A stretch of 64,000 nt of DNA. Source: Candidatus Rokuibacteriota bacterium. GTDB taxonomy: Bacteria > Methylomirabilota > Methylomirabilia > Rokubacteriales > CSP1-6. This document shows positions 45,646 to 52,395 of this stretch, in pieces. Each line of letters begins with the position of its first letter. The first letter of the stretch is position 1. The stretch is taken from contig JAUSJX010000065.1 in NCBI GenBank assembly GCA_030647435.1, positions 1-64,000 on the forward strand, written 5' to 3'. The notes under the pieces were generated by a model, which was not told the DNA's origin, did not search any database, and was given only the letters and a program-made list of their open reading frames with translations. The translations under genes and the position numbers were made by a program.

Positions 45646-45831
45646 GAGTCGACAGCCTGCGCCGGCCTCTCGTGGGAGCCTGACAGTTTTCGGGAGTCCG
45701 GCTTCACTATTTGGCGGTCCCGGTGAGCCTTTTTCCCACCCAATAGGGGCACTTTGCCCGACTGGCCTGGATCAAGCCCGTCTCGGACCCGAATATTCCC
45801 GATTTTCGAGCGTCTCTCTCCACGAAGCCTG

Positions 45832-45847
45832 CGGCACGAGGCTTGCA
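45832..45847 (+). promoter_or_regulatory. Sigma54 promoter (-24/-12) upstream of the DksA-like gene
   Basis: CGGCACGAGGCTTGCA has GG (45833-45834) and GC (45845-45846) exactly 10 nt apart, and matches GGCACG-N4-TTGCA fully. Transcription would start near 45858, about 50 bp before ATG 45907. Confidence 0.75.
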
Positions 45848-45906
45848 CCAGCCGGGGTAGCCGGGCTGGGACAGCCGTAGGGCGAACCGCCCAGGGGGAG
45901 ACCAAA

Positions 45907-46317
45907 ATGGAAGACGTCAAGAAGAAGCTGGAAGCGGAACTGAACCGGACGGTCGAGCGCATCCGCCACATGGGCGGGACGGCGATGTCCGTGCAGACCA
46001 TGAACGCGCTGGGCGACACGAGCCAGCTGGCCGACGAGGTCGACGTGATCCAGATCAACGAGGATCGCGAAATGAGCTTCGCCACGCGGAGCCTGCTCGT
46101 GGAGCGCGCCAACCGCCTGGCCGAGGCGCTCGAGCGGTTGCGGGACGGCGAGTACGGCGTCTGCCAGGAGTGCGACGAGGCCATCGCGCCCGCCCGCCTC
46201 AAGGCCATGCCCGAGGTGATGACCTGCGTGCGCTGCCAGGACCGCCTCGAGCGAATGACGCGTCACAGGGCGCTCGTCGGCGCGGGCGTTGACGAGGACG
46301 AGCCCGAGGACGACTAA
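45907..46317 (+). CDS. DksA/TraR-family zinc-finger protein
   Basis: The 136-residue protein starts at ATG 45907 behind CAGGGGGAGA. A helical coiled part (about 5-85) is followed by the C4 zinc finger CQEC...CVRC in YGVCQECDEAIAPARLKAMP and TCVRCQDRLE. DksA relatives insert into the RNA polymerase secondary channel and mediate ppGpp responses. The coiled-coil tip Asp pair of true DksA is not obvious, so a regulatory paralogue is likelier. Control by sigma54 would tie it to nitrogen, surface or stress signals. Confidence 0.85.
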   Translation: MEDVKKKLEAELNRTVERIRHMGGTAMSVQTMNALGDTSQLADEVDVIQINEDREMSFATRSLLVERANRLAEALERLRDGEYGVCQECDEAIAPARLKAMPEVMTCVRCQDRLERMTRHRALVGAGVDEDEPEDD

Positions 46318-47730: not shown

Positions 47731-47739
47731 GGGCCAGTG

Positions 47740-47745
47740 TATACT
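47740..47745 (+). promoter_or_regulatory. -10 TATACT for aroQ, nearly leaderless
   Basis: TATACT ends 9 bp before ATG 47755, so at most a few leader bases are expected. No ribosome-binding site is present (CTCCCCGCC precedes the ATG). Confidence 0.4.
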
Positions 47746-47754
47746 CTCCCCGCC

Positions 47755-48234
47755 ATGGCACGTTCGTCGGCTGCCCTTGTCCTCGTACTCCACGGGCCAA
47801 ACCTCAATCTCTTGGGTACGCGGGAGCCTGCCGTCTACGGCCGCACGACCCTCGCACAGCTTGACGGCGAGATCCAGCGCCACGCCGCGCGCCGAGGCGC
47901 CAAGGCGGTCTGCCGCCAGTCGAACCACGAGGGCCAGCTCATCGACTGGATACAGGGCGCCGCCGGCGAGGGCTTCAGGGCCATCGTCATCAACCCCGGC
48001 GCGCTGACCCACTACTCCCTCGCGCTGCGCGACGCGGTCTCCGCCGTTTCCGTGCCCGTCGTCGAGGTCCACCTCTCGAACATCCACGGGCGGGAGGATT
48101 TCCGTCGCCATTCGGTGATCGCGGCCGTGGCGCGGGGACAGATCTCGGGCTTCGGCCCCGCCAGCTACCTCCTGGGCGTGGACGCGGCGCTCCAGTCGGC
48201 CACGGCGGGCCGGCCGAGCCGGCGCCCGCGGTGA
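47755..48234 (+). CDS. aroQ: Type II 3-dehydroquinate dehydratase
   Basis: The 159-residue enzyme makes 3-dehydroshikimate in aromatic amino acid synthesis. It has LHGPNLNLLGTREP with the catalytic Tyr loop following (AVYGRTTL), QSNHEGQLIDWI, NPGALTHYSLALRDA, and VEVHLSNIHGREDFRRHS with the catalytic His. This is the dodecameric type II enzyme. The C-terminal 12 residues are basic and variable. The aroK gene is 18 kb away. Confidence 0.95.
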   Translation: MARSSAALVLVLHGPNLNLLGTREPAVYGRTTLAQLDGEIQRHAARRGAKAVCRQSNHEGQLIDWIQGAAGEGFRAIVINPGALTHYSLALRDAVSAVSVPVVEVHLSNIHGREDFRRHSVIAAVARGQISGFGPASYLLGVDAALQSATAGRPSRRPR

Positions 48235-48302
48235 ATGTCGGTCCCCCTTCCGGCGTCTAATCCGCGTCGTGGCGGGAGGCGCGGGGGCCGCCACAGGCTC
48301 CT

Positions 48303-49472
48303 GTGACGCCGCCCGCGGATCCGCCGATGCTTCCCGACGGCGCAGGCTCTCCGGGTTCCGCGGACCTGGACGAGCGTCTCCTCATCGAGCGGTGTCGCGC
48401 GGGTGACATCGCGGCGTTCGAGCCCCTGGTGGAGAAGTACCGGCAGCGCGTGTGGCGCCTGGCCTTCCAGGTGCTGCGCGATCGCGAGGAGGCATGGGAT
48501 TGCGCTCAGGACGCCTTCGTGCGGGCATTCCAGTCGCTGGCGTCGTTCCGCGGCCAGTCGGCTTTCTACACCTGGCTCTTTCGCATCGCCATGAACGTGG
48601 CGACCGACCGGCTGCGCGCCCGGAGCGCCCAGGCACGCGCGTTCGGCAGCCAGCTTGTGCCGGCGGAGGAGTGGGAGCGCACCGCGCCGGATCACGGGGA
48701 GCGGCCAGACCAGGCCGCGCTGGGCGCCGAGCGGCGCCTGCGCATCCGCCAGGCGCTCGATACCTTGCCGCCCAACGCGCGAACCATTATCATGCTCAGT
48801 GACGTCGAGGGGCTCTCGTACCGCGAGATCGCATCCGTGCTCAACTGCCCAATCGGAACGGTGATGTCGAGGCTTCACAACGCGCGCAAGCGGCTGCGGA
48901 GCGTGCTCGGGCCCATGCTGCTCGTGCTCGTGTGTCTCGCGGCCGCGCTCGCGGGCGTTGCCGCATGGTCGCCGGCCTCGGGTCAGACGCCTCCGCCGGC
49001 CCCGGTCGCGGCGCCTCCAAAGGGCATGGTTCACTTCGAGGTCAGGGTCCTGCAGGCCTCGAACCCTCCCGCTCCTCAGCCCGCGCCGGCCGGCAAGCAG
49101 GCGCCGGCTCCCGCCGGCCCCGCCGTCAGCCAAATGGACGAGCGCCTCAAGCAGATCGTGCCGCGGCTGAGCAAGCTCTTCCGCTACAGCGACTACACGC
49201 CGCTCGAACATCACAATGTGGACGTCGAGTTCGGCGCCTCCAAGCGCCTGCCCGGCCCGGGCGACCGCTCGCTCGAAGTCACGCCGATGGACCTCCAGGG
49301 CAAGTCGGTCCGCATGCAGGTGCGGCTGCTCAAGAGCGAAAAATCCGTCATGACCTCGAACATCGTCGCCGCCCCGGGCGCGCCTGCCATCATCGGCGGC
49401 CCGCGCCACGGCACCGGTGTGCTCATCATCATCATTTGGGTCGATCCGATCACCGCGCCGCCGGCGAAGTGA
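48303..49472 (+). CDS. ECF sigma factor fused to a membrane helix and exported domain
   Basis: The 389-residue frame (GTG 48303, or ATG 48327) starts with an ECF sigma factor. Region 2 is at about 30-105 (AFEPLVEKYRQRVWRLA, DCAQDAFVRAFQSL, FYTWLFRIAMNVATDRLR). Region 4 is at about 145-202 (LPPNARTIIMLSDVEGLSY, EIASVLNCPIGTVMSRLHNARKRL). Without a stop it continues into a hydrophobic helix (about 205-221, LLVLVCLAAALAGVAAW), a Pro-rich linker and about 150 residues rich in beta strands (VHFEVRVLQASN, NVDVEFGASKRL, VRMQVRLLKSEKS). No zinc anti-sigma gene follows. The sigma factor is thus predicted to be membrane-tethered; alternatively two genes were joined by a lost stop. Confidence 0.82.
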   Translation: MTPPADPPMLPDGAGSPGSADLDERLLIERCRAGDIAAFEPLVEKYRQRVWRLAFQVLRDREEAWDCAQDAFVRAFQSLASFRGQSAFYTWLFRIAMNVATDRLRARSAQARAFGSQLVPAEEWERTAPDHGERPDQAALGAERRLRIRQALDTLPPNARTIIMLSDVEGLSYREIASVLNCPIGTVMSRLHNARKRLRSVLGPMLLVLVCLAAALAGVAAWSPASGQTPPPAPVAAPPKGMVHFEVRVLQASNPPAPQPAPAGKQAPAPAGPAVSQMDERLKQIVPRLSKLFRYSDYTPLEHHNVDVEFGASKRLPGPGDRSLEVTPMDLQGKSVRMQVRLLKSEKSVMTSNIVAAPGAPAIIGGPRHGTGVLIIIIWVDPITAPPAK

Positions 49473-49490: not shown

Positions 49491-51014
49491 GTGAGTGAGG
49501 AGCGCTACTTCCGGGAGCGCGCCCGCATCGAGCAGGGCCACGTCAAATACCGCGACAAGCTGAAGGACGAGGGCAAGCTCTTCGTCCGCGACCGCCTGAA
49601 GCTCCTCCTCGACCCGGGCTCTCCGTTCCAGGAGGACTTCCTCTTCGCGCGCAACCAGGAGGCCGATACGCCGGCCGACGGCGTGGTCACCGGTGTCGGC
49701 ACCGTGGGCGGGCGCACCGTCTGCATCATGGCCAACGACTACACGGTCAAGGCCGGCTCCTGGGGTGAGAAGACGGTGGCGAAGATCGTGCGCATCCAGG
49801 AGCGGGCCCAGCGGCTGCAGGTGCCGCTGCTCTACCTCGTGGACGCGGCGGGCGGGCGCATCTCGGAGCAGATCAAGATCTTCCCCGGCCGCTTCCACGC
49901 CGGGCGCATCTTCTACAATGAAGTCCAGCTCTCCGGTGTCGTCCCCCAAGTGTGCATCCTCTTCGGGCCCTCGCCGGCCGGGTCGGCCTACCTGCCCGCG
50001 CTGACCGACTGCGTGATCATGGTGGACGGCAAGGCGAGCCTGTACGTCGGCTCGCCCCGCATGGTCGAGATGGCCATCGGCGAGAAGGTTTCGCTCGAGG
50101 ACCTCGGCGGCGCGCGCATGCATTGCTCGGTGTCGGGCTGCGGCGACATCCTGGCGGGCTCCGACGAGGACGCGATCGAGCTCTGCAAGCGGTACCTGGC
50201 CTTCATGCCCCAGTCTTACCGCGAGCGGCCGGCGGGCACCGAAGCCCGCGAGGCCGTGCCGGGCCGGCCGATCGAGGAGATCGTCCCGTACGACCAGCGC
50301 AAGTGGTTCGACATGTACGAGGTCATCGACCGGGTCGTGGACGCGGGCTCCTTCTTCGAGATCAAGCGGCTCTTTGCCCAGGAGATCATTACCGGATTCG
50401 CCCGCATCGGCGGCCGCGCAGCCGGCATCGTCGCCAACCAGCCCAAGGTCAAGGGCGGCGTGCTGATGGTGGACTCCTCCGACAAGGGCGCGCGCTTCAT
50501 CTGGCTCTGCAACGCGTTCAACATCCCGCTCGTCTACCTGGCCGACGTCCCGGGCTTCATGGTCGGCGCCAAGGTGGAGCGCGCGGGCATCATCCGCCAC
50601 GGCGCCAAGATGGTCTTCGCCACCTCGCAGGCGACGGTGCCGAAGATCTCCGTGGTCGTGCGCAAGTGCTACGGCGCGGGGCTCTACGCGATGTGCGGCC
50701 CGGCCTTTGAGCCCGACGCGGCGCTATCCCTGCCGCAGGGGCAGGTGGCCATCATGGGGCCCGAGCCGGCGATCAACGCCGTCTACTACAACAAGATCAT
50801 GGAGCTGCCGGAAAGCGAGCGCGCGGCTTACGTCCGGGAGAAGCGCGAGGCGTACGTCCAGGACGTGGACATCTACAAGCTCGCCTCGGAGATGCTGGTG
50901 GATGGCATCATCGCGGGCTCGGAGCTGCGCGGCGAGCTCATCAAGCGGCTCGAGTACGCCCAGAGCAAGCAGCTCGAGTTCCCCCCGCGCAGGAATCCCG
51001 TTCTCCCCGTCTGA
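49491..51014 (+). CDS. Acyl-CoA carboxylase beta (carboxyltransferase) subunit
   Basis: The 507-residue protein (GTG 49491) is a biotin-dependent carboxyltransferase with two crotonase-like halves. The N-terminal half has KLKDEGKLFVRDRLKLLLD, DGVVTGVGTVGGR and LLYLVDAAGGRI. The C-terminal half has FARIGGRAAGIVANQPKVKGG, IPLVYLADVPGFMVG, RKCYGAGLYAMCGPA and a terminal AYVREKREAYVQD. Propionyl-, methylcrotonyl- and geranyl-CoA carboxylases share this layout; the acyl specificity is uncertain. No alpha or biotin-carrier gene is adjacent. Confidence 0.9.
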   Translation: MSEERYFRERARIEQGHVKYRDKLKDEGKLFVRDRLKLLLDPGSPFQEDFLFARNQEADTPADGVVTGVGTVGGRTVCIMANDYTVKAGSWGEKTVAKIVRIQERAQRLQVPLLYLVDAAGGRISEQIKIFPGRFHAGRIFYNEVQLSGVVPQVCILFGPSPAGSAYLPALTDCVIMVDGKASLYVGSPRMVEMAIGEKVSLEDLGGARMHCSVSGCGDILAGSDEDAIELCKRYLAFMPQSYRERPAGTEAREAVPGRPIEEIVPYDQRKWFDMYEVIDRVVDAGSFFEIKRLFAQEIITGFARIGGRAAGIVANQPKVKGGVLMVDSSDKGARFIWLCNAFNIPLVYLADVPGFMVGAKVERAGIIRHGAKMVFATSQATVPKISVVVRKCYGAGLYAMCGPAFEPDAALSLPQGQVAIMGPEPAINAVYYNKIMELPESERAAYVREKREAYVQDVDIYKLASEMLVDGIIAGSELRGELIKRLEYAQSKQLEFPPRRNPVLPV

Positions 51015-51036
51015 GTCCCTTCGCCTACGGCACGCG

Positions 51037-51786
51037 GTGGGCTACCTGATTCTTGCCGTCCGGTTTCTGACTATCGTGCCGGTGCCGGGGCGCGAGGCGA
51101 CGGGCGCGGGGGCGCTCGGACGGGCCGCGTGGTGGTTTCCCGCCGTGGGCCTGGCGCTCGGCGCCTGCCTCGTCGCTGCCGACCATCTCCTCGCGTTCGT
51201 GTTTCCGCCGCTGCTGGGAGCCATCCTGGTCATTGGGCTGTGGAAGGTTCTTACCGGCGGCATTCACCTCGACGGCCTCGCCGACGTTCTCGACGGCCTC
51301 GCGGGCCGCGACGCCGAGCGGCGGCTCGCCATCATGCGGGACAGCCGTATCGGGGTCTTCGGCGCCGGCGGCATCGTCCTCTGCTTCCTGATCTCGGCAG
51401 GCGCGCTCGACGCGCTGCCCGCGGGCCGCCACCCGGCGATGCTGTTCCTGGCGCCGGCGGCAGGCCGCCTCGTGCCGCTTCTGATCGGCCCGTTGTTCCC
51501 GGCGGCGAGCCCTGGTCAGGGGGTCGGCGCGGCCTTCCTCGAAGGTCTGTCGCCGTGGGCGGGGCCCGTGTCCGTCGCCGGCTTCTGGATCCTGGCAGCC
51601 GCGCTGCTCGGGCCGTGGGGCGGGCTCCTCTTGAGCCTCGCCCTTGCGACCGTGCTCCTCTGGGCGGTGTTTGTGGCCTCCCGCCTCGGCGGCCTCACGG
51701 GGGATGCGCTCGGCTCGTCAGTCGAGATCGGCGAGCTCGCGACGCTGGTGGCCGCTGCGGCCCTGATTCACCTGCGCGTCCTCTAA
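51037..51786 (+). CDS. cobS: Adenosylcobinamide-GDP ribazoletransferase
   Basis: GTG 51037 gives 249 residues, the usual length. It joins adenosylcobinamide-GDP with alpha-ribazole in the last part of cobalamin synthesis. Motifs are FLTIVPVP near the N-terminus, GGIHLDGLADVLDGLAG, RDSRIGVFGAGG and the C-terminal TGDALGSSVEIGE, amid several membrane helices. It is followed directly by the alpha-ribazole phosphatase gene. The product serves the corrinoid enzymes encoded at 27-32 kb. Confidence 0.93.
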   Translation: MGYLILAVRFLTIVPVPGREATGAGALGRAAWWFPAVGLALGACLVAADHLLAFVFPPLLGAILVIGLWKVLTGGIHLDGLADVLDGLAGRDAERRLAIMRDSRIGVFGAGGIVLCFLISAGALDALPAGRHPAMLFLAPAAGRLVPLLIGPLFPAASPGQGVGAAFLEGLSPWAGPVSVAGFWILAAALLGPWGGLLLSLALATVLLWAVFVASRLGGLTGDALGSSVEIGELATLVAAAALIHLRVL

Positions 51787-52395
51787 GTGCGGACGACCAT
51801 CTACCTCGTCCGGCACGGCAGCGTGGTGGGCGCCGAGACTCGGCGGTTCATCGGCCATCTCGACGTGCCACTTTCGCCGGTGGGCGAAGCCGAGGCGGCG
51901 GCGCTGGGGCGGCGGCTCGCGGGCGCCAAGCTCGCCGCGGCGTATTCCAGCGACCTCGCGCGCACGCGACGGACCGCCGAGATCCTGGCGGCGCCCCACG
52001 GGCTGGAGGCCGTCCCGCTGCCGGAGCTCCGGGAGTTCTCCATGGGGCGCTGGGAGGGCCTGACGGCGGATGAGATCCGGGCGCTCGACCCCGCGGCCTT
52101 CGAGGCGTGGATGGCCGACGTCGGCCGATTCCAGTTTCCCGGGGGAGAGAGCCTGCCGGACGTCTCGGCAAGGGCTTGGCCCGCGTTCGAGGGCATCGCC
52201 GCCCGCCACCCGGGCTCTCGCGTCCTCGTGGTCGCACACGGCGGTCCGAACCGCATCGTCATGTGCCGGGCGCTCGGCATTCGTCCCGAGCGCATCCTGG
52301 CGCTGGGCCAGGACTACGCGGCGCTGTCCGTGCTCGAGCGGGGCCCGTCGGGCTGGGCCCTCCGCCTGCTGAACCACCGCGAGCCTCTGCTATAA
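51787..52395 (+). CDS. cobC: Alpha-ribazole phosphatase / histidine phosphatase
   Basis: GTG 51787 follows the cobS stop without a gap; 202 residues. The phosphohistidine motif is LVRHGSVVG. Further family residues are YSSDLARTRRTAE, FSMGRWEGLTADEIR (Glu) and VAHGGPNRIVMC (second His). It removes phosphate from alpha-ribazole phosphate, or acts on adenosylcobalamin phosphate, as CobC. The linkage to cobS supports this rather than phosphoglycerate mutase. Confidence 0.88.
   Translation: MRTTIYLVRHGSVVGAETRRFIGHLDVPLSPVGEAEAAALGRRLAGAKLAAAYSSDLARTRRTAEILAAPHGLEAVPLPELREFSMGRWEGLTADEIRALDPAAFEAWMADVGRFQFPGGESLPDVSARAWPAFEGIAARHPGSRVLVVAHGGPNRIVMCRALGIRPERILALGQDYAALSVLERGPSGWALRLLNHREPLL

Follow-up and report, generated by a model that had tools for sequence, protein, structure and literature searches.

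ECF sigma factors are a main route by which signals from the cell envelope reach the genome, and in most known cases they are controlled by anti-sigma factors. A sigma factor can also be held inactive at the membrane itself, as is pro-sigmaK of Bacillus, which is freed by an intramembrane protease; unlike the fusion described here, however, pro-sigmaK has an N-terminal pro-peptide, is specific to sporulation and carries no exported sensor domain. Membrane-fused sigma factors of the ECF type have already been described (ECF48, ECF52, ECF53 and IutY), each with an anti-sigma portion (PMC8999054, PMC5826349). In ECF52, ECF53 and ECF48 (e.g. SCO4117 of Streptomyces), as in the present case, the sigma factor is followed by a transmembrane helix, a Pro-rich stretch and an exported C-terminal domain, and proteolytic release has been proposed (PMC5826349, PMC8999054). 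These actinobacterial proteins nevertheless contain a zinc-finger anti-sigma domain between the sigma and transmembrane parts, whereas the fusion reported here has none, and ECF52 carries a carbohydrate-binding module, whereas no such family matches the exported domain found here, hereafter called X. In IutY of Pseudomonas putida (ECF243), the sigma factor likewise shares its chain with a partner that spans the membrane; IutY is released by stepwise proteolysis involving Prc and ending with RseP, and its truncation is activating (PMC8999054). Its extension is a membrane-bound anti-sigma factor that serves iron cell-surface signalling, whereas here the anti-sigma gene appears to have been dropped.

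Two further systems offer parallels for the release step and for the genes involved. RsiV shares with the fusion an A-x-A site beside the transmembrane helix and an exported domain: upon ligand binding on the outside, signal peptidase acts as site-1 protease at this site, and the site-2 protease RasP follows (PMC9044953). RsiV, however, is an anti-sigma factor and sigmaV a separate protein, whereas here the sigma factor itself would be the tethered chain and cleavage is a prediction. In E. coli, RseP normally requires prior removal of a bulky exported part, and detached remnant signal peptides are likewise removed by it (PMC10470546). The RpoE-RseA-RseB system has the same order (sigma factor, membrane anti-sigma factor, periplasmic protein) as an operon found in sister lineages of the organism studied here; in the fusion the counterpart of RseA is missing, and there is no evidence that X is homologous to RseB.

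A sigma factor fused straight onto a signal peptide, with the anti-sigma factor dropped, was not found in the literature searched, which left the ECF classification paper aside. Rokubacteriales, an order of uncultured bacteria from soil and groundwater, appear to have put a covalent tether, made of a signal peptide, in the place of the anti-sigma factor. If this is true, a membrane tether is enough by itself to keep a sigma factor under control, release can fall to the export machinery, and a compact one-protein transmembrane switch has been made by deleting the inhibitor from a sigma/anti-sigma/sensor operon; X, the third protein of the sister-lineage operon, would then be marked as a likely direct regulator.

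Layout of the fusion gene and its locus

The window, i.e. the whole stretch of DNA analysed, comprises 64,000 nucleotides of a Candidatus Rokuibacteriota genome. Its features of interest are as follows.

47737..48234, plus strand: aroQ-like gene (3-dehydroquinate dehydratase), upstream; an ORF named by sequence recognition, the stop codon of which overlaps the -35 element
48232..48260, plus strand: predicted ECF-type promoter TGAAT-N17-CGTCTAA, a conserved motif upstream of the fusion gene
48303..49472, plus strand: fusion gene, an ORF with a GTG start, 389 aa
48426..48626, plus strand: sigma region 2, residues 42-108 (Pfam PF04542 Sigma70_r2, E 5.5e-17; best structural match AlgU/sigmaE)
48738..48896, plus strand: sigma region 4, residues 146-198 (Pfam PF08281 Sigma70_r4_2, E 1.5e-19)
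48855..48866, plus strand: GGA ACG GTG ATG, internal ATG (Met188) with a purine-rich Gly codon, a possible internal start for secreted X; conserved, a weak lead
48915..48980, plus strand: hydrophobic helix and c-region, residues 205-226, with the site A-S-G^Q, from signal peptide anatomy and the (-3,-1) rule
48981..49139, plus strand: Pro/Ala-rich linker (~228-280) together with the first strand of X, residues 227-279, from sequence
49026..49448, plus strand: exported beta-rich domain X, residues 242-382 (AF2 pLDDT 87.6, pTM 0.78)
49491..51014, plus strand: acyl-CoA carboxylase subunit, the next gene downstream; an ORF named by sequence recognition

A complete RpoE/AlgU-like ECF sigma factor forms the N-terminal part of the product of the ORF at 48303-49472. 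Regions 2 and 4, described as intact in a preliminary description of this DNA, indeed both give strong Pfam matches, and their occurrence without region 3 corresponds to the ECF (group 4) layout. The sigma half maps onto the AlgU and sigmaE structures, with 39-40% identity to AlgU; among the NCBIfam models, the sigma70-ECF superfamily model scored above its cut-off and the RpoE equivalog beneath its own. Region 4 terminates in RKRLR, and some six residues later begins a hydrophobic segment (~205-221, maximum Kyte-Doolittle value 2.57 over 19 residues), so close that the AF2 model shows a single unbroken helix, 184-221, running from region 4 into the membrane segment. C-terminal to region 4, the Pfam scan of the fusion protein gave zero matches, zf-HC2 included, and neither FecR nor any other Pfam or NCBIfam family was found in this part. 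Tethering is the likely inhibitor, since region 4 continues as one helix into the membrane segment and the protein has no anti-sigma domain.

Nor does an anti-sigma gene adjoin the fusion gene: none is present among the ORFs on either side within the window, in keeping with the earlier claim that no such gene lies behind the fusion, and an overlooked adjacent one is ruled out. By tblastn, aroQ lies upstream at essentially all fused loci and the acyl-CoA carboxylase gene downstream at most of them. The genome has seven zf-HC2 matches, all away from the fusion locus; at least three of the seven adjoin other ECF genes, and some adjoin no ECF gene found.

The beta-rich character attributed to the C-terminal part was borne out by structure prediction. 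The AF2 model built on 42 aligned X sequences is confident, with one strand, a helix and then seven strands over residues ~242-382, while the Pro/Ala-rich linker is of low confidence except for the strand 242-253. X matched no Pfam or NCBIfam family and no PDB fold at E<=1e-3, the PDB and viral fold matches being weak. The domain had been called new, which holds insofar as no known family matches it but not in the sense of being unique to the fusion, as it stands alone in sister lineages (see below). A profile search of plasmids returned no match to X, the other search with X having covered the genomes of this phylum. Twelve of the 42 X domains gave a weak match to the Pfam Secretin family (best E 0.013), which may reflect remote kinship or chance resemblance between beta-rich sequences and is a lead only. 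PDZ-domain chains, picked up by the X profile at E 0.005, were set aside, being absent from the fold search results.

Conservation and separate-gene relatives

A scan of bacterial and archaeal genomes with the full-length query led to Rokubacteria loci with the identical, uninterrupted frame. The X profile matched 66 of the 95 genomes of the phylum and 53 of the 57 genomes of the window's family, and the fusion also occurs in two further families of the order (L061, L062); the X-negative genomes of the order (four in the family, one elsewhere) are 64-87% complete, so that absence there is uninformative. Forty distinct Rokubacteriales fused proteins were read directly, and a stop or frameshift at the junction was found in none of them. 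The same layout is thus conserved order-wide, with one open frame from the sigma factor through helix and Pro-rich linker into the beta-rich sequence, as the preliminary description had it for the single gene. Between closely related pairs, every part of the chain (sigma domain, helix, linker and X) has a dN/dS well below 1.

The fusion is neither an error nor a one-off. That an assembly or frame artefact joined two genes can practically be dismissed, given that the junction is open in each of 40 distinct proteins, which come from many MAGs of several genera and families, and that purifying selection acts across it; the sole frameshift case (L065:4318, G049), which probably reflects a misassembly or a copy in decay, falls inside X, away from the boundary. 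Since no Rokubacteriales fusion has a stop at the boundary, the fusion represents an ancient derived state.

In sister lineages (families f5 and f6; L050-L053, L055-L059), by contrast, X is a gene of its own with its own signal peptide, and the gene order is ECF sigma factor, single-pass protein with an N-terminal zinc-finger-type motif, secreted X. Two of three middle genes tested match zf-HC2 (L055, 3.5e-11; L051, 9e-4, under the curated cut-off) and that of L064 does not; from its layout, the middle gene is a predicted membrane anti-sigma factor. Separate genes for the two parts, which the preliminary description took as the finding that would count against the fusion, do therefore exist in sister lineages, but there with a third gene, the membrane anti-sigma gene, in between, and no fusion in Rokubacteriales has a stop at the boundary. 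Two Rokubacteriales genomes (L063, L064) have both the fusion and a separate sigma/anti-sigma/X set, the latter with a different ECF sigma factor.

In phylogenetic trees, the fused sigma domains group together in a single clade, as do the fused X domains in theirs (SH-aLRT 98 each). Because the separate-gene order is sigma/anti-sigma/X, the fusion looks like the outcome of losing the anti-sigma gene and linking sigma region 4 in frame to the X signal peptide, and the simplest history is that this happened in one event. Long branches separate the fused from the operon sigma domains, and it is not proven that the fused sigma factor derives from precisely the sigma gene found in these operons.

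The two halves of the fusion do not always diverge together. L003 and L013 have sigma domains that are 90% identical but X cores that are only 37% identical, and more generally L003/L020 differ from L012, L013, L014 and L018 by a strongly divergent X under a near-identical fused sigma factor; the sigma and X trees conflict over L020. On these comparisons, the sigma factor seems to have been conserved while its X was swapped for another, as expected of a sensor module.

Putative cleavage site, promoter-like motif and internal ATG

Signal peptides of stand-alone X proteins end in ...AYAQ, ...VAAQ or ...AHAQ, and the hydrophobic segments of the fusions have the same endings. The position of the putative site was counted in 40 distinct fusions under a single condition: that it be the first [AG]Q downstream of the helix or, where there was none, the first [AG]E. 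Position -1 is then Ala or Gly in 40/40 and position -3 small or aliphatic in 39/40, whereas position -2 is unconstrained, charged and aromatic residues included; [AG]Q itself is present in 37 of the 40, against ~20% expected from composition. Such residues at -3 and -1 constitute the classical rule for type I signal peptidase. Judged by this anatomy, what spans the membrane is the signal peptide that X had ancestrally, with its cleavage site retained, and the pattern suggests that signal peptidase cleavage is under selection. The hydrophobic segment previously described is therefore confirmed, but the plain transmembrane helix it was taken for is corrected to a signal peptide with a conserved cleavage site. 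For the same reason, the "permanent" fusion of the preliminary description is not established at the protein level.

As the helix would be a signal peptide with a retained site, signal peptidase is the candidate first protease. The genome encodes one S26 signal peptidase and an M50 RseP-like protease. In the fusions, 18-30 residues, almost entirely hydrophobic, separate the end of region 4 from the cleavage junction.

Upstream of the fusion gene, 29 distinct regions were aligned on CGTCTA, and in all of them AAT and the A that follows CGTCTA are invariant. The exact motif TGAAT-N17-CGTCTAA was matched 44 times across the family's 57 genomes, while the reversed control had 0 matches; 41 of these 44 sit on the contig of the fusion gene, just upstream of it, and the copy listed above is the sole exact one in this genome. 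In the window, the TGA of TGAAT doubles as the aroQ stop codon, which confounds its conservation; AAT, however, is preserved even in genomes that read ACAAT. The motif looks like an ECF promoter and would predict autoactivation; ECF sigma factors often recognise the promoter of their own gene. When it was used to search for a regulon, the strict match found essentially only the gene's own promoter, and a relaxed match gave noise.

The ATG within region 4 (48864) is found in all aligned fusions. It is preceded by GGA or GGG in 40 of 52 fused genes, compared with 18 of 47 when this motif is taken in other ECF genes (p 1e-4, a statistic that ignores relatedness).

Proposed release of the tethered sigma factor

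The tethered sigma factor of the preliminary description, with its exported domain and without an anti-sigma gene, is supported, whether it acts after proteolytic release or at the membrane, the two modes which that description named. Architecture, conservation, single origin, the separate genes of sister lineages, the cleavage motif and the promoter-like motif, all read from sequence, lead me to favour the following reading, to which I give a probability of roughly 0.5: the protein would be an ECF sigma factor tethered to the membrane, of single origin in a Rokubacteriales ancestor, and released by X-gated signal peptidase cleavage and then by RseP. The sigma domain would lie in the cytoplasm, the former signal peptide across the membrane and X outside, and tethering alone, without any anti-sigma domain, would keep the sigma factor inactive. 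X would sense an envelope condition and govern whether type I signal peptidase reaches the A-x-A^Q site that has been kept; once this cut is made, RseP would cleave the remnant helix and free the sigma factor, which would then activate its own TGAAT-N17-CGTCTAA promoter. The stricter version, in which the sigma factor is nothing but the cytoplasmic head of a signal peptide, both proteases, normally the housekeepers of protein export, effect its release, X gates the cut and no anti-sigma function enters the pathway at all, is put forward tentatively, as a possibility below even odds. Several points weigh against a gated tether: cutting by signal peptidase may be constitutive, and X would then be no gate; in strict form the promoter motif is found roughly once in each genome, and no regulon beyond the gene itself was found; an unlinked zf-HC2 anti-sigma factor could still act on the tethered protein; the internal start signal allows X to be produced separately as well; and long branches lie between the fused and operon sigma domains.

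Constitutive cutting is the main rival, albeit an improbable one. The fusion would then be a polyprotein, cut by signal peptidase as it is exported, with X left in the periplasm and the sigma stub trimmed by RseP without regulation, so that the fusion would do no more than couple synthesis 1:1. The cleavage site is indeed kept almost everywhere, X is an ordinary secreted protein in the sister lineages, and E. coli RseP does remove remnant signal peptides (PMC10470546); yet a sigma factor that is always free, activates itself and has no anti-sigma factor would be constitutively on, which is unusual, and the anti-sigma gene in the sister-lineage operons argues that control was needed. Less likely again is the production of two proteins, a tethered full-length sigma factor and a separately secreted X initiated at Met188. 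The conservation of the internal ATG and the enrichment of a purine-rich Gly codon before it in fused genes, relatedness being ignored in that comparison, fit this idea, but the ATG belongs to a GTVMSR motif that is common to unfused ECF genes, a full Shine-Dalgarno sequence is absent at this position, and the full-length frame is still open to translation.

Two explanations dispense with release. The layout might be of the ToxR/CadC kind, a tethered sigma factor that brings RNA polymerase to the membrane, X acting as the sensor and proteolysis playing no part. The fusion does combine a cytoplasmic transcription module, a single helix and an exported domain in one chain, and this arrangement needs no anti-sigma factor. 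Sigma factors, however, normally must reach promoters together with polymerase, region 4 passes into the membrane helix with next to no linker, and the cleavage motif has been retained, which makes this explanation slightly less plausible than that of two products. Very unlikely, finally, is that the tethered sigma factor is still inhibited by an unlinked zinc-finger anti-sigma factor, the fusion adding localisation only. The zf-HC2 matches that adjoin no ECF gene found would provide candidates; on the other hand, at least three of the seven belong beside other ECF genes, and none lies beside the window's fusion gene, aroQ and the carboxylase gene flanking most fused loci.

As for other genes of the neighbourhood, a zinc-finger protein of the DksA/TraR type (CQEC...CVRC) is encoded ~2 kb upstream of the fusion gene (45754-46317 in the window); its appearance is not that of an anti-sigma factor. 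Past the carboxylase gene, positions 51015-52395 hold a CobS-like gene followed by a phosphoglycerate-mutase/CobC-like gene (51787-52395), both of which resemble cobalamin synthesis genes.
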